Source of the DNA: Gammaproteobacteria bacterium
Lineage (GTDB): Bacteria; Pseudomonadota; Gammaproteobacteria; Ga0077536
Assembly (NCBI GenBank): GCA_020851775.1
Contig: JADZCB010000200.1
Location: 1 to 36,153 of the forward strand
Direction of reading: 5' to 3'
DNA length: 36,153 nt
Below, piece by piece: positions 23,663 through 34,112 of the stretch (positions within the stretch are counted from its first letter, which is position 1; each line of letters opens with the position of its first letter). Both the position numbers and the translations under genes were made by a program. Below the pieces are notes generated by a model. It was given only the letters and a program-made list of their open reading frames with translations. It was not told the origin of the DNA and searched no databases.

Positions 23663-25393
23663 TCAGCGCGCCACTTCGACCCGATTGCGGCCGTCGCGCT
23701 TCGCCCGGTACAGCGCCTGATCCGCGCGATCGAACAAGGTGGCCAGGCTTTCCTGCTCACCGAGTTCGGCAACGCCGATCGAAACCGTGACGGGCACCGG
23801 CGAGCCCTTGAAGTGGAAGTTCGAACCGGCGATCTGGCGCCGCAGGTCCTCACACACCTCGAGCGCGTCCTCGAGTCGCGTATCGGTCAACAAGGTGACG
23901 AATTCCTCGCCACCGTAGCGGGCGAAGAGATCGGTGGCGCGGATGCGCTTCAACGCGATGCTCGCGGTATAGCGCAACAGCTTGTCGCCGGCCTTGTGAC
24001 CGAAGCCGTCATTGATGCGTTTGAAGTGATCGAGGTCGAGCATCGCGAGGCACAGTGGCGAGCGGTGACGCCACGCCCGTCTGACTTCGATCTGTGCGCG
24101 TTCCTCGTAAGCGAGCCGGTTCGGCGCACCCGTCAGCGTATCGCTGTGCGCCCGCGCCTGTTCGGCCTCGAGGTCTTCGCGCAGACGGGTCGATTCGCGT
24201 TCGAAGCTCTGCAGTCGCTGATTCAGATCGGCGATGCGCTGCTCGTAGGTTTCCTGCCTGTGCTGCTGCAGGTGGAGAAAGGTCGACATCGTCGCGCGTA
24301 TCGTCGCGACGCGGCGTTCGACCAGCGCGCGCAGATCGGCCGGCGGCCGTTCATCCTGCACCGCCGCGTCGATTTCGTCCATCTCGGCGTTGATGCCGCG
24401 GCTCAGCTCGCACGAGTGCAACGCCGCCGTGCGGCTGTGGTCGACGGCGTAACGCAGTTCGAGATCGATGACGCTCAGGTTCTCCGACGCCTGTTTGAGG
24501 TAATCCTCGAGCGTGCGCAGATCCTTGCGCATGAAGGCGTGCAGATCGTTCAGGAACTTGCCCGTCTCGCGCACCGGATCCGCACTCGCGCCGCAGCCGA
24601 GCGTCTCGCGCAGCCGTTGCGAGCGTTCCTCGAATTCGCTCGGCAGCAGCAGCCAGTCGAGCAACTGCGCGAGGCTGGTGCCGGGCTGTGCGTCCGGCGG
24701 TGTGCGGGCCGCCGGATCCTGTGGCCCGAGCGCGTCGCGCACGAGTTGCAGAAACCGGGACTCCAGCCCCTGGCGTGCAGCGGCACCGGCATCCTGCTGC
24801 CACGCGCTGCGCAGGCCGGCCGCGCGCTCGCGCAAGGCGTCGTGTGTGGCGAGTTCGTCGAGCACGCGCGGCACGATGTCGTCGGCTGGCGCCGACCCGC
24901 GACTGGGACCGGTCCGCGCCGAGACGGTGGCCGCGAGATCGTTCAACGTATTCGCCAGCAACGCGGCGACGCGCGCAGGATCCTCGCCGTTCTTCAGCCG
25001 TGACTGGATCTGTCTGAGTTCGATCGTCGTCTGTGCCGGCAGTCTCAGCGCCGCCAACAGGGTCTCGAGCGGCGCACGGCCGCTGTCCGTCGGCAGACTC
25101 GCGCGTTTGCGCGCCTGGGCAAGGCAGGCGTCGGCGATTTCGCCCAGCAGGCCGGCGCGAATCTTCGGTTCACTGCTGCTGCGCAGGTTGGTGCGCAGGC
25201 TGCTGAGCTGGCGATCGAGCCCGACGTCGAGCCCATCGAAGCATTGCGCGAATTTCAGCAAGGCCTGAACGAGTGCGCGTTCGCTCTGCGCCCAGGTCGC
25301 GCGCTCCTGATCGGCTTCGCGCGCGAGATCGCGGTAGCGTTGTTTCCAGTCCTGATCGGTGCCGAGGCGAGAGGTTTCGTTGACTGTCGACAT
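23663..25393 (-). CDS. Diguanylate cyclase (GGDEF) with long helical N-terminal region
   Basis: A 576-residue cytoplasmic protein from the ATG at 25393. Residues 1 to about 400 are mostly helical, with a conserved-looking DQDWKQRYRDLAREA start, and include a coiled coil near 365-405. They have no membrane segment and no recognised sensor domain. The C-terminal GGDEF domain carries the active-site GGEEF at 494-498 and the product-inhibition I-site R485-A-T-D488 exactly five residues before it, plus DLDHFKRINDGFGHKAGD and VTVSIGVAEL. It should therefore make cyclic-di-GMP and be feedback-inhibited. It starts 88 bases after imuB on the same strand. Upstream in-frame starts (for example 25447) are possible but overlap a hairpin and lack a better ribosome binding site. 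Confidence 0.9.
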   Translation of the reverse strand: MSTVNETSRLGTDQDWKQRYRDLAREADQERATWAQSERALVQALLKFAQCFDGLDVGLDRQLSSLRTNLRSSSEPKIRAGLLGEIADACLAQARKRASLPTDSGRAPLETLLAALRLPAQTTIELRQIQSRLKNGEDPARVAALLANTLNDLAATVSARTGPSRGSAPADDIVPRVLDELATHDALRERAAGLRSAWQQDAGAAARQGLESRFLQLVRDALGPQDPAARTPPDAQPGTSLAQLLDWLLLPSEFEERSQRLRETLGCGASADPVRETGKFLNDLHAFMRKDLRTLEDYLKQASENLSVIDLELRYAVDHSRTAALHSCELSRGINAEMDEIDAAVQDERPPADLRALVERRVATIRATMSTFLHLQQHRQETYEQRIADLNQRLQSFERESTRLREDLEAEQARAHSDTLTGAPNRLAYEERAQIEVRRAWRHRSPLCLAMLDLDHFKRINDGFGHKAGDKLLRYTASIALKRIRATDLFARYGGEEFVTLLTDTRLEDALEVCEDLRRQIAGSNFHFKGSPVPVTVSIGVAELGEQESLATLFDRADQALYRAKRDGRNRVEVAR

Positions 25394-25404
25394 GTCGATT
25401 TCCC

Positions 25405-25431
25405 GTGGTGAAGCTGTATCGTCTTCACCAC
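25405..25431 (-). promoter_or_regulatory. 9-bp perfect inverted repeat just before the diguanylate cyclase start
   Basis: GTGGTGAAG (25405-25413) and CTTCACCAC (25423-25431) form a perfect 9-bp dyad with a 9-base loop, ending 11 bases before the ATG at 25393. As RNA it would place the weak GGGA ribosome binding region at the foot of a hairpin; as DNA it could be an operator. It has no following U tract, so a simple terminator after imuB is less likely. Confidence 0.5.
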
Positions 25432-25481
25432 CGGTGGCCTTGAGCATCGCGCCGCAGATGCTGCTGTGCGGAGCCGGGACT

Positions 25482-29088: not shown

Positions 29089-30369
29089 TCAGCGCCGTAA
29101 CGCGCTCGCGAGCTCCCGCGTGGTCTGCCGCAGACGTTCGATGAGGACGTTCTGAAAAGCCTTGCCGAGACGCAACTGACAGGGCAGCGAGGCCCAGTCC
29201 TTGAAATCGCGGTCGATCTTGACGACGGTGGTGTCGCGGTTCGCATTGACGGTGGCACTGCGACCACCGTCGGCGAGATATTCCATTTCGCCGAAGCAGT
29301 CACCGGGATCGAGATCGCGGATGCGCACGCCGTTGATCGATACCGCAACCCCACCCTCGGCGATCACGTAGAACGCGCGTTCCTTGTCACCCTCGGAGAA
29401 GATCGCCGCGCCCGTTTCGTAACGACGCCAGGTCGACACCTTGGCGATTTCCTTCAGTTCGTTCTTGCCGAATTCCCCGAAGAAACCGAGTTCGGCGAGC
29501 TTGGCGAGCTTCTGCTCGTCGGTCAGCACCAGCGGCAGATTGCGCGCATCGCCGAGCAGGCCGTCGAGATCGATGACGAGTTCGGCGCCGGTCTTGTAGC
29601 GCCGCTTGACGTCTTTCTCGAGCAACTTGCGCACGATGGGCCAGAGTTGATCGGGCAGATCGGGACGATGCTGGGCGAGCGGCGCAGGATCTTCGTGACA
29701 GACTTTCTGGATGAGGCCGGTCAGACCTTTCGCAGCGAACGGCGGCGTACCGGTCAGCATTTCGTAGAACACGGAGCCGAGCGAGAAGAGATCCGACTGC
29801 GGCGTAATTTCGGCATCGCGTGCCTGCTCCGGCGACATGTACAGCGGCGAGCCGAACCAGCCGACGATCTGTGTCTGATCGGCGCCCATGCGTCGCGCGA
29901 TGCCGAAATCGCCGAGCTTCGCGACCCCGTCCTTCGTCAGCATGATGTTGGCCGGCTTGATGTCGCGATGGAGCACGCCGTTGCGATGCGCGTAGTCGAG
30001 AGCGTCCGCCGCCTGGCGGATCACGCGGATGACCGTCGGCACCGGCAGCAATGATTCCTTGCGGCAGTAGTTGCGCAGGGTGTCGCCGCCGTCGATGAAC
30101 TCCATCACCATGTACGGCTGACCGTTGTCCTCGCCGGCCTCGTAGACCTTCAGGACGTTCTGGTGGTCGAGCCGGCCGGCCGAGCGTGCCTCGTTGATGA
30201 ACAGCCGGCGCGCGACGCCTTCGTTGTCGGCGTCGGCATTCGTGGCGAGCTTGATCGCGACGGGCCGATCGACGTAAGGATCGTGAGCGCGGTAGACGAC
30301 GCCCATCGCACCCCGCCCGAGTATGTCGATGACGTCGTACTTGCCAATCTTCGCCGGATTTTCGCTCAT
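29089..30369 (-). CDS. Ser/Thr protein kinase with C-terminal cyclic-nucleotide-binding domain
   Basis: A 426-residue cytoplasmic protein without membrane segments. The Hanks-type kinase domain covers about 10-270: glycine loop GRGAMG at 18-23, K40 in VAIK, E60, catalytic H134-R-D136 with KPAN following, D154-F-G156 and SPEQA at 179-183. All catalytic residues are intact. From about 295 to 390 it is a cNMP-binding domain with GDCFGEMEYLADGGRSATV, containing the phosphate-binding E361 and R370, so ligand binding is plausible. Fusion of kinase and cNMP domain in one bacterial protein suggests direct ligand control of kinase activity. Its ATG overlaps the stop of the PilZ/DUF1631 gene by 4 bases. 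Confidence 0.92.
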   Translation of the reverse strand: MSENPAKIGKYDVIDILGRGAMGVVYRAHDPYVDRPVAIKLATNADADNEGVARRLFINEARSAGRLDHQNVLKVYEAGEDNGQPYMVMEFIDGGDTLRNYCRKESLLPVPTVIRVIRQAADALDYAHRNGVLHRDIKPANIMLTKDGVAKLGDFGIARRMGADQTQIVGWFGSPLYMSPEQARDAEITPQSDLFSLGSVFYEMLTGTPPFAAKGLTGLIQKVCHEDPAPLAQHRPDLPDQLWPIVRKLLEKDVKRRYKTGAELVIDLDGLLGDARNLPLVLTDEQKLAKLAELGFFGEFGKNELKEIAKVSTWRRYETGAAIFSEGDKERAFYVIAEGGVAVSINGVRIRDLDPGDCFGEMEYLADGGRSATVNANRDTTVVKIDRDFKDWASLPCQLRLGKAFQNVLIERLRQTTRELASALRR

Positions 30370-33300
30370 GCTTCTGCCGTGAGGATCAGGCGCGTCGCCC
30401 GCGTCTGGTCGTGTATGAAATCGATGCCGAGCTCCCTGGCGAGATCGCCGATCCCGCTATCGCCCGCCTGCTTCACGATCGTCGACTTGCCCATGAAGTG
30501 AATCAGTTCGTTCATCGATTTCGCGATCGCAAAATCCTTCTGATGCTGGCGCGCGTCGGTGATGAAATCCTGCTGTATCGACACATAGTCGACGGCGAGT
30601 TCCTTCAGATATTCGTAGTTGGTGCGCGCGCCGCCGAACTCGCCGAGGATGAACTGGCACCCGAACTCACGCAGCGTATTGATCAGATCGGAGGTCTCCG
30701 CGAGCCTGGCGACCGCATCCTTGTCGGCGACCTCGAAACAGATCTTCGACGGCGGCACGGCCGTCTGCATCAGTTCGGCGATGATCGTGTTGGCGAGGCT
30801 TTCGCCATCGAGCGCCGCGCGCGACAGCGGCACGATGAAGGCGCTCACGCGCTCGACGTCGTCTTCGTTGCGCGCCATCCATGCCAGCGTGTGCTTCAAC
30901 ACCCACAGATCGACGTCGTAGGCCCGCGCCGACGTCGCCGCGGCCTGGCTGAACAGCGTCGGCGGCACGAGCTTGCCGTTGCGGTCCTCCGCACTGACGA
31001 TGACATAGGCCGCCGGCTGGGTCGCCGCCGCCAGGGCCCGCACTTCCTGGTACAGCAGCGCGAGCCGATCGCGATCGACCGCTTTCGTCACGTACGCCGC
31101 CATCTGTTCGAGCTGCTTGCGATGGCGGTTGTCGGTGCCGGCGATGAACACCGGCTTGTCGGACATGCCGCGCGCCGTGTTGCAGGCGTCGGCAACGGTA
31201 TTCAGCAGGTCCTCGGCCTTCGTCAGGTCGTCGTCGACTGCGAGCAGTCCCGCGACGCACTTCAAGGCCATGACGTCCCCTTCGTGCAGCGACTCGATGA
31301 GGTTCAGGGTCGCACACAACGCCTGCACTTCCTTGTACGCTGCCTGCAGCCCGCCGCGCTCCCAGTACACCGCAATCTCGCTGCCACCGAGCCGGCCGAG
31401 CAGGACCTGCTTGCGACCGTAGCGGGCCTGCAGGGCTTCGGCGACCCGCTTCAGCACACCGTCGCCGGCCTCGATGCCATGGCGATCGTTGATGGCCTTC
31501 AGGTTGTCGAGTGCGAGCTGGCACAGCACCGCGCCCGCATCGGATTTCCCTGCCGCCGGCAACTTGTCGTCGACCGCATGCACGAAGGACTTGCGGTTGA
31601 GCAGACCGGTCAGGGCGTCGTGGTTCGCGTGTTCGGCGACTTCGCCGTGCAGCTTGTTGACGACCCCGAACAGTGCGCGATCGACCGCCGCCGCGCCGTC
31701 GTCCGGCAAGGGCTTCAGCAGGCCGCGGCGCAGGTACATTGCGACCTGTTGCAGTGTCAGCGTCGAGGATTTCGTACCGCGCTGATCGACGAGCACGAAG
31801 GGGTTGTAATCGTCGCCGATCCACGCGAGCGTGACGAGCACCGCCTGCCGCGTGTTCGCATTCATCACGAGCCGGTCACCGACGTTCAGCGCCTTCGAGC
31901 GGTTCAGCCAGCGGTTCCACTCCGGCGGGAGCTCCTGCTGCGATGCCGTCGATTCCCCCGGCTTCACGCCCGATTTCTCGCGTCGCTCGCGCAGCACGAT
32001 CTGCTGTTCGTTCAGGCCCGCGACGACCTGCTGCACGTTCGTCTCGTAGCGCCGGCGCTGGTCGCGCAGGATTTCGTCGAGCTCGTTGATGATCGGATAC
32101 AGGGGATCGTGATTGCCGTCGAATTGGCGGTTGATGCCGTCGATGAGATCGCGCACGCGTGCCAGATGGTGTTCGACGTCCTGACCCTGCTCCTGACGCA
32201 GCAGGGAGACGCGGTTCAGCAACTGACGCAGCGGATGCTGGGTCTGGGAAAAGAACTCCTGATCGACCAGCGCGCCCTTGTGCACCACCGGTTGCAGGCG
32301 CTTGAGTTGCCCTTTTGCGAAGTCGGCGAGCATCGGATCCTGCAGCAAGGCCTGGAACAGGCTGACGATGACTTCGATTGCGTCGCTTTCGGTCTGGCCG
32401 ATCGCATGATCCACCAGCCCGTCGGCAGCGAGCGCCGCTTCGACGCGATGCTTGATGAAATCGGCGTCGAAGAGTTCGGGCTCGGCGTCTTCGAGCAATG
32501 CGTGCTGCAATGGCGTCAGGCCGCGGGCGATCTGCGCGCCACTGAAGTAGTGTCCGCCGGCGGGCAGCGCCGGCGCCGCAAACTGCGGCGCAAGCTGACG
32601 TCTCAGCGCGAGCTGTGTCTGCGCCGTGTGGTATGCCTGTTCGAGGCTCGGCAACACGGCGACCGATGGTCCATGGCCGAAGCCGCTGAACGTCGCGTCG
32701 CCTGCAAAGCCGCGATAAGCACCCCCAGCGCCGCCCATGCCCTCGACGTCCATCAGCGGTGGCAACGCCGGCATTGCCGCCATGACACTGCCGGCCGGCA
32801 TCGACGGGAATCCGGTCAACGATACCGGAGCACCCGGCGGGGCGGCCATGACGCCGCCAGGATACATCGCTGCCGGCGCTACTCCCGGAACGGAAACGTC
32901 CGGTACGCTGCCGGGTGCCGCAGCGCCTGCGGCACGCAGCCCGGCCGCGATCCGTTCGTATGCACCAAGTCCCTGTCCTGACAGCGGACCGGCCGGGTGG
33001 ATCGGATTCAGCATATCGCTCGGATGCGGGGGCTGGCTGCGCTCGAGAGGGGGAACCGGCGGGTTCGTCCGGCGGCCGGCACCCGGCGGCTTGAACGTTG
33101 CCCGCTCCTGTTCCAGCACGGGCATGATGCCATTGTCAATCAGAAGCTGGTTGACGGCATCGTAGAGACGGCCGAGATGCGGTTCGAGCACGCGGCGCAA
33201 TGTCTTGTAGGCCAGATCACTGGTCGCCTTGTTGACCAGCAGGCCTTTCATCGACTCCGCGAACGCATTGCAGACGACGGCCGGCCCGATCGGATTGCCG

Positions 33301-34112
33301 CTGTCATCGATCACGCGCCGCGCGAGCAGGCTCAGGCGGCGCGATGACGCGTACAGCGCCTCCTTGAAACGGCTCTCGAGCTCGGACACCGCCTCGGACA
33401 CCGACAGGAATTCCTCGAACTCGTCCTTGTCGACGAGCGAGAGATTCGACAACGACGTCACCTCGGCCGGCGTCGCGCGTTCGGCGAGCGGATTGCCGAG
33501 AATCGTGGCGCCGCGCCCCAGGATTTCGGGTACCTGGCGACGAATGGCGTCGGCACGGCGCCGCAGGCTCGACTGTGCATCGGTGAACAGCGTCGAATCG
33601 CGATTGGTCTTGGCGTCACGGGCGGCGGCAAAGAATGCGTCGCCGAGCTGACGGACGAACTCGTCGGTCATCGCTTGCGCCGTCGAGTCGACCAGGGTCG
33701 AGAGCCGCGGCAGGACACGCCCGAATTCCGGTGCGAAACGCTTTTGCGTGTCCGACATCGATTCGGTCGGCGACGGCGGCGTGTTGAGAGTCGCGAGACC
33801 CTGCAGCATCCCGATCGTCCTGGGATCGGGATCCTGGAACGCGACGCCGATGCCGGTCGGAATGACCCGACAGACGAGCAGTTTGAGCTGGAGATCCCGG
33901 CGTTCACCACCGACGACGAGGGCGAAATACAAGGTCGCCTTGTCGTGCATGTTGATGTGGCGAAGTTCACGTTCATCCGTCTGGATGAACATGCCGGCCA
34001 CGCAGAAGTCCTTGACGGTGCACGCGATCGGCGGCCGGCCGCTGATCGAGATCAGCGCGTCCAGACTCATCGGGATACGTGCGTAGCGCCGTCGCTCCTG
34101 ACCCTGGGCCAT
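30366..34112 (-). CDS. PilZ-DUF1631 protein with degenerate GGDEF and EAL domains
   Basis: A 1248-residue cytoplasmic protein. Residues about 6-108 resemble PilZ, with R8-xxx-R12 and D35-F-C-V-A-G40, where the usual Ser is Cys. About 120-790 is a DUF1631-like region, mostly helical, interrupted by a Pro/Gly/Ala-rich stretch near 345-480. A GGDEF-like domain follows (about 800-950) with GGSEI at 909-913 instead of GGDEF. An EAL-like domain ends the protein, with VSAED at 1039-1043 where EAL is expected and GEFGG near 1157 for the usual DDFG. Both enzyme sites therefore look dead, and the protein is probably a receptor or scaffold for c-di-GMP. Coupled by ATGA overlap to the kinase. Confidence 0.85.
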   Translation of the reverse strand: MAQGQERRRYARIPMSLDALISISGRPPIACTVKDFCVAGMFIQTDERELRHINMHDKATLYFALVVGGERRDLQLKLLVCRVIPTGIGVAFQDPDPRTIGMLQGLATLNTPPSPTESMSDTQKRFAPEFGRVLPRLSTLVDSTAQAMTDEFVRQLGDAFFAAARDAKTNRDSTLFTDAQSSLRRRADAIRRQVPEILGRGATILGNPLAERATPAEVTSLSNLSLVDKDEFEEFLSVSEAVSELESRFKEALYASSRRLSLLARRVIDDSGNPIGPAVVCNAFAESMKGLLVNKATSDLAYKTLRRVLEPHLGRLYDAVNQLLIDNGIMPVLEQERATFKPPGAGRRTNPPVPPLERSQPPHPSDMLNPIHPAGPLSGQGLGAYERIAAGLRAAGAAAPGSVPDVSVPGVAPAAMYPGGVMAAPPGAPVSLTGFPSMPAGSVMAAMPALPPLMDVEGMGGAGGAYRGFAGDATFSGFGHGPSVAVLPSLEQAYHTAQTQLALRRQLAPQFAAPALPAGGHYFSGAQIARGLTPLQHALLEDAEPELFDADFIKHRVEAALAADGLVDHAIGQTESDAIEVIVSLFQALLQDPMLADFAKGQLKRLQPVVHKGALVDQEFFSQTQHPLRQLLNRVSLLRQEQGQDVEHHLARVRDLIDGINRQFDGNHDPLYPIINELDEILRDQRRRYETNVQQVVAGLNEQQIVLRERREKSGVKPGESTASQQELPPEWNRWLNRSKALNVGDRLVMNANTRQAVLVTLAWIGDDYNPFVLVDQRGTKSSTLTLQQVAMYLRRGLLKPLPDDGAAAVDRALFGVVNKLHGEVAEHANHDALTGLLNRKSFVHAVDDKLPAAGKSDAGAVLCQLALDNLKAINDRHGIEAGDGVLKRVAEALQARYGRKQVLLGRLGGSEIAVYWERGGLQAAYKEVQALCATLNLIESLHEGDVMALKCVAGLLAVDDDLTKAEDLLNTVADACNTARGMSDKPVFIAGTDNRHRKQLEQMAAYVTKAVDRDRLALLYQEVRALAAATQPAAYVIVSAEDRNGKLVPPTLFSQAAATSARAYDVDLWVLKHTLAWMARNEDDVERVSAFIVPLSRAALDGESLANTIIAELMQTAVPPSKICFEVADKDAVARLAETSDLINTLREFGCQFILGEFGGARTNYEYLKELAVDYVSIQQDFITDARQHQKDFAIAKSMNELIHFMGKSTIVKQAGDSGIGDLARELGIDFIHDQTRATRLILTAEA

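Follow-up and report, generated by a model that had tools for sequence, protein, structure and literature searches.

Does a Ser/Thr kinase fused to a cyclic-nucleotide-binding (CNB) domain work together with the large multidomain protein encoded directly upstream of it, and what has become of the enzymatic domains of that protein? The question is raised by two genes of contig JADZCB010000200.1, whose 36,153 nucleotides are referred to below as the window. The contig belongs to a draft gammaproteobacterial genome of 3.4 Mb in 453 contigs, and the nearest named relative, with 89% identity for the kinase, is the MAG Gammaproteobacteria bacterium Ga0077536 (unclassified Gammaproteobacteria at NCBI). 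Both genes lie on the minus strand (Table 1). The first encodes a 1248-residue PilZ-DUF1631-GGDEF-EAL protein that we call BIG, and the kinase gene starts within the BIG stop codon. Upstream of BIG lies a divergent gene which we take to be glnS-like, and downstream of the kinase a convergent, presumably dgkA-like gene, so that the pair forms a two-gene unit of its own. Consensus-based promoter scanning and a terminator scan of the locus gave nothing above chance level. Neither protein contains a membrane helix-like stretch, the highest 19-residue hydropathies in the two being 1.2 and 1.5. Elsewhere in the window (23663-25447), a diguanylate cyclase with a DGC-associated coil directly follows imuA-imuB- and lexA-looking genes (SOS mutagenesis), and some relatives (L186, L187) have a similar cyclase-like gene in this position.

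Table 1. Features of the kinase-BIG locus (window coordinates) and related loci
Feature	Position	Strand	Basis
Kinase-CNB gene, 426 aa	29089..30369	-	Pfam PF00069 and PF00027; 24 orthologues of at least 60% identity in the order
CRP-like CNB domain, about residues 296-420; E361, R370, C-helix T416-T417	29110..29484	-	Pfam 315-388 and CRP-register alignment
Hanks-type Ser/Thr kinase domain, residues 11-259; K40, E60, D136, D154 present	29593..30339	-	Pfam, motifs; closest solved sequences PknB/StkP
ATGA overlap, BIG stop and kinase start	30366..30369	-	Relatives show overlaps or short gaps
BIG gene, 1248 aa	30366..34112	-	ORF and Pfam
Pseudo-EAL, residues 1009-1233; 1 of 8 catalytic residues left	30414..31088	-	Pfam 1.6e-30; residue table
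Pseudo-GGDEF, residues 829-981; signature GGSEI	31170..31628	-	Pfam 7.5e-20
C-terminal DUF1631 subdomain, residues 716-810; small SH3/Tudor-like beta barrel	31683..31967	-	AlphaFold2 model; weak structural matches, Z ≤7.5
DUF1631 region, residues 133-715; all-helical	31968..33716	-	Pfam 7e-76; AlphaFold2 model
Low-complexity linker interrupting DUF1631, about residues 341-490	32643-33092	-	AlphaFold2 linker pLDDT <50
PilZ domain, residues 6-104; RxxxR and DFCxxG	33801..34097	-	Pfam 8e-7; motif kept across families
DUF1631 and REC-PAS-GGDEF-EAL-type gene loci	L207:7063-11905, L208:3072-7846, L209:1554-8090		

The 426-residue protein matched the Pfam families for kinases (5.5e-51) and cNMP binding (3.8e-16). 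The complete motif set of an active Hanks kinase was found, namely the Gly loop (GRGAMG, 18-23), the Lys (in VAIK), the alpha-C Glu (in NEAR), HRD (134-136), DFG (154-156) and an APE-like SPE (179-181), and it is conserved in the orthologues linked to BIG. Judged by these residues, the kinase is catalytically complete. The CNB domain carries an FGE motif that includes E361, then R370, and its last helix reads RLRQTT (412-417). E361, R370 and T416-T417 aligned with E72, R82 and T127/S128 of CRP, whose sequence set the register. Thr127-Ser128 is the base-contacting pair of CRP. The phosphate-cassette Glu and Arg, as well as RLxxT[TS] in the last helix, are kept in most linked kinases; this makes cAMP the first candidate for the CNB ligand, and we infer that it is most likely the one bound. 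The kinases of family f133 (see below) lack the threonine pair of the C-helix as well as some of the phosphate cassette, and may therefore bind another ligand. The host genome gave four matches to the class III cyclase family and 18 to GGDEF.

BIG matched DUF1631 (PF07793) with 256.6 bits, against a curated cut-off of 33.7, together with the EAL, GGDEF and PilZ families. In its PilZ domain, RxxxR (8-12) is intact and the D/NxSxxG position reads DFCVAG (35-40), with Cys for Ser. RxxxR and DFCxxG are kept in nearly all complete linked BIGs and in most unlinked ones; the D/NxSxxG motif is lost in one BIG (G004). A PilZ domain with Cys in this place would probably still bind c-di-GMP. For DUF1631, AlphaFold2 gave a confident helical body, a disordered linker and the C-terminal barrel. 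Foldseek returned nothing at E ≤0.001 for the helical model, and no solved structure matched it. With VIA-align Z scores of at most 7.5, the best for the small barrel, we claim no named fold; helical matches to BAR domains and designed bundles were weak and were judged to be common arrangements. The DUF1631 part also matched the NCBIfam "PacR family protein" (5.8e-22, far below cut-off), a name for which our literature search turned up no explaining paper. A stand-alone DUF1631 gene lies near a REC-PAS-GGDEF-EAL-type gene, all motifs intact, in four genomes of the order of the window. Such a neighbour was seen in this order only and in 0 of 30 class-wide DUF1631 loci with 1.5-kb flanks, so that it argues only faintly for a Rosetta-stone link between DUF1631 and GGDEF-EAL.

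The GGDEF signature of BIG reads RLGGSEI, where an active domain has GG[D/E]EF. The EAL domain was scored at eight catalytic columns (E, N, E, D, D, K, E, Q), those carried by the solved RbdA EAL and by the unlinked relatives, and BIG of the window retains one of the eight. Given GGSEI and this count, both domains are designated pseudo. The earlier note, whose ORFs, strand and ATGA overlap we recovered exactly, had read the locus in the same way: an intact Hanks kinase with a CNB domain keeping its Glu and Arg, and a 1248-residue protein with PilZ-, DUF1631-, GGDEF- and EAL-like parts, the last two pseudo.

Conservation of the gene pair in related genomes had been set beforehand as the main test that could refute the proposal, and the pair is conserved. 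Kinase orthologues (at least 60% identity) were found in 24 of the 36 genomes sampled in the order. One of them begins at a contig edge (G015) and was left out of the count; BIG lies directly upstream and on the same strand in all 23 orthologues with upstream DNA, mostly overlapping or less than 150 bp apart. These include G001, where the BIG frame is broken, and G006, where the kinase is split over two contigs, the junction being visible in both. The same pair is carried by ten genomes of five other gammaproteobacterial families (f133, f134, f67, f29 and f71), with identities of 46-52% for the kinase and 23-33% for BIG; BIG is frame-broken in G063 and very diverged in G234. The flanks vary by family, with glnS, dgkA and lexA in the order and other genes elsewhere. 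Neither this kinase nor a DUF1631 match was seen in genome G025 or in genera g7 and g9, whose genomes measure 1.4-2.3 Mb, and two incomplete genomes (G011 and G028) have no kinase and BIG fragments at contig ends. A phylum-wide search with the kinase, in a thin sample, gave close matches only within the same class.

Of 65 kinases placed in a tree, the 31 that adjoin BIG formed one clade (SH-aLRT 99), as against 33 without BIG; in a careful kinase tree this clade had 100/99 support. When BIG proteins were compared without their catalytic columns, the 28 kinase-linked proteins likewise formed one clade (99). With one clade on each side, the coupling looks like a single event, and breakage was not seen. 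Because adjacency survives identities as low as about 23% for BIG and 46% for the kinase, changed flanks included, and each partner forms one clade, we conclude from this comparison of genomes that the two very probably function as a pair.

Proteins of the PilZ-DUF1631-GGDEF-EAL type also occur outside this pairing. Elsewhere the majority are found alone and have an intact EAL, and the 19 unlinked proteins that were read (several kb of flank in most) had no kinase of the family nearby. All eight EAL residues are kept in 18 of these 19. Only the second of a tandem pair of genes in G151 departs from this (L273:3968-11877; EAL 8/8 and 5/8, no kinase), which means that EAL loss also occurs without linkage. 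Among linked proteins only 2 of 28 (G168 and G375) have the complete set, both from f134, the earliest-branching family; a third f134 member retains 6/8, f133 proteins 4-5/8, and those of the window's order 0-2/8. The GGDEF signature is varied and degenerate throughout the linked clade, and mostly GSDEF or GGDEF in unlinked proteins. In the careful kinase tree, based on a gene independent of BIG, f134 falls outside the rest (91/93). Since this family holds the intact-EAL partners, linkage came before EAL loss. By parsimony, linkage takes a single change and EAL loss takes four, of which three fall within the linked clade. As linkage arose once, these data describe a sequence of events in one lineage, and not a statistical correlation or a repeated test.

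Loss of the catalytic residues has left the pseudo-EAL well conserved. Mean identity within the order is highest for the EAL and the small barrel (0.51), followed by PilZ (0.42), GGDEF (0.38) and the linker (0.26). Pairwise dN/dS of the pseudo-EAL was 0.06-0.20 (five pairs), rough values because some dS are high, and points to a domain under purifying selection. A survey of Ser/Thr columns conserved only in the linked clade and outside the EAL fold, as candidate phosphosites, gave none that was convincing; that BIG is a substrate of the kinase is a guess.

The kinase-CNB family is rich in paralogues, some with neighbourhoods of their own. In the G096 genome, a kinase-CNB gene that does not belong to the BIG-linked clade is overlapped at its start by the gene of a GGDEF-EAL protein with intact motifs (L275:3712-6497), a second, separate joining of an EAL protein to such a kinase. 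In G000:C205 (L204, 1998-6380), a phosphoglucose isomerase gene lies between two kinase-CNB paralogues that are on the opposite strand. This layout recurs in several families (L202, L203, L212, L215, L216), elsewhere with a small gene that looks by eye like a CBS-domain gene, and these may possibly be cyclic-nucleotide kinases acting on sugar metabolism. The G000:C205 paralogues have the same domain order as the kinase studied here, and occur in the same genome, but have no BIG alongside and fall outside the BIG-linked clade. Downstream of BIG-linked kinases we observed an isocitrate dehydrogenase with C-terminal CBS domains (G063, L197:3475-6687) and, in f133, a gene that by eye resembles glycerate 2-kinase (L191:9718-10920, L192:10255-11418). 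An unlinked BIG-type gene (G213, L265:1-8463) lies near fliC-, flaG- and fliD-looking genes, again by eye, a hint of motility.

We propose that the two genes encode a dedicated signalling module, made of a kinase and its constant partner BIG. The kinase would be a catalytically competent enzyme of the cytosol, and binding of a cyclic nucleotide, in all likelihood cAMP, to its C-terminal CNB domain would gate it. In BIG, the PilZ domain would sense c-di-GMP and DUF1631 would provide a helical body. The tandem of pseudo-GGDEF and pseudo-EAL, having ceased to turn over c-di-GMP, would be kept as a docking and regulatory surface for the kinase, and perhaps also as a target of its phosphotransfer. 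As to its history, an ancestral PilZ-DUF1631-GGDEF-EAL phosphodiesterase would have joined the kinase gene once. The linked BIG would at first have kept its enzyme, in the manner of a trigger phosphodiesterase, a stage at which f134 may still be; the enzyme would then have been lost in the rest of the linked clade, the output moving from c-di-GMP hydrolysis to phosphorylation. This reading as a whole, with BIG as a former phosphodiesterase turned regulatory or scaffold partner of the kinase, is one we hold with moderate confidence, about evenly balanced between right and wrong. The fuller version, in which a cAMP-gated kinase captured the phosphodiesterase and made it, step by step, a dead c-di-GMP-sensing subunit of a two-messenger relay, with f134 intermediates keeping the enzyme residues, is put forward tentatively, and we would sooner expect it to fail in some part than to hold throughout.

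All the domain types are known, and parts of the scheme have counterparts. The kinase and CNB domains share one chain, as they do in the cGMP-dependent kinase PKG, also found among the sequence matches. PKG has several CNB domains, placed before the kinase, whereas here a single one sits C-terminal to a kinase domain that most resembles bacterial PknB. Among solved GGDEF-EAL sequences, that of RbdA (PA0861) from Pseudomonas aeruginosa comes nearest to the family's C-terminal half; however, its 568-residue chain matches that half only, and its EAL has the catalytic residues that BIG of the window has lost. In Bd1971 of Bdellovibrio, a cAMP-sensing EAL phosphodiesterase (PMC6717892), a CRP-like cNMP domain is likewise wired to an EAL domain, so that cAMP and c-di-GMP signalling converge. 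That single-chain case shows that coupling of cAMP sensing to an EAL domain is possible in nature, but there the EAL is active, whereas here the sensor is on the kinase and the EAL on a second protein, its catalytic residues lost in this lineage. In the trigger phosphodiesterases PdeR and PdeL of E. coli, the EAL protein controls a bound partner and the enzyme serves as sensor (PMC5052742). Of the known schemes, we regard this one as the most fitting frame for the mechanism. The intact-EAL pairs of f134 would fit this description; in the window, the partner is a Ser/Thr kinase and BIG has no active EAL, as in most of the clade, where the proposed partner role would be what is left.

Control might run in the opposite direction, with the kinase as output only: c-di-GMP on PilZ would switch BIG, which would set the kinase on or off allosterically, the CNB domain serving to dimerise or binding c-di-GMP rather than cAMP. 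The CNB domain of Xanthomonas Clp is reported to bind c-di-GMP. Preservation of the PilZ motif across linked families and loss of the C-helix pair in f133 agree with such a scheme, but the majority of linked kinases retain CRP-like contacts to cAMP and cyclases are present in the genome, and we consider it unlikely. We are just as doubtful that the genes merely share an operon for the same process, such as motility or surface life, and that their products never touch. Neighbours need not be partners, as shown by kinase paralogues adjoining phosphoglucose isomerase and isocitrate dehydrogenase genes, and direct contact of kinase and BIG is something we infer; yet co-expression alone accounts poorly for adjacency unbroken through deep divergence and changing flanks, for the co-absence of the two genes, and for a catalytic loss almost confined to linked BIGs.

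Much less probable is that the linked pseudo-EAL/GGDEF still binds c-di-GMP and controls the kinase in this way. FimX, which is among the sequence matches, and LapD likewise carry a degenerate GGDEF next to a degenerate EAL domain in a single chain, and the pocket of FimX still binds c-di-GMP. So does that of LapD, degenerate EAL receptors being a known class (PMC5052742), and f134 members have a complete EAL site. In the lineage of the window, however, the pocket has other residues in place of its Glu, Asn, Asp pair, Lys, Glu and Gln. As residues for binding as well as for cutting are gone, a receptor of the LapD/FimX type is highly unlikely, which leaves PilZ as the only good candidate for a c-di-GMP site. 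The earlier note had suggested a two-protein system integrating a second messenger with Ser/Thr phosphorylation; its pairing is upheld by conserved adjacency and one clade on each side, while the c-di-GMP binding without turnover that it allowed the degenerate EAL now looks unlikely. Least credible of all is that BIG is a decaying phosphodiesterase with functionless relics for pseudo-domains: EAL and GGDEF signatures are indeed lost in this lineage, but the pseudo-EAL and barrel are the best-conserved parts of BIG, and the low dN/dS led us to reject decay.

Returning to the proposed module of kinase and captured partner, our literature search found no cNMP-domain kinase adjoining a PilZ or EAL protein, in line with the statement of the earlier note that it knew of no such pairing, nor a linked loss of catalysis of this kind, nor any description of a protein-kinase relay using both cAMP and c-di-GMP in bacteria. 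If the proposal is true, cAMP, c-di-GMP and Ser/Thr phosphorylation would be joined in one two-gene module, and DUF1631 would gain its first functional setting. The family would then offer a natural series, from unlinked active through linked active to linked dead enzyme, that may show how a second-messenger enzyme becomes a signalling partner.
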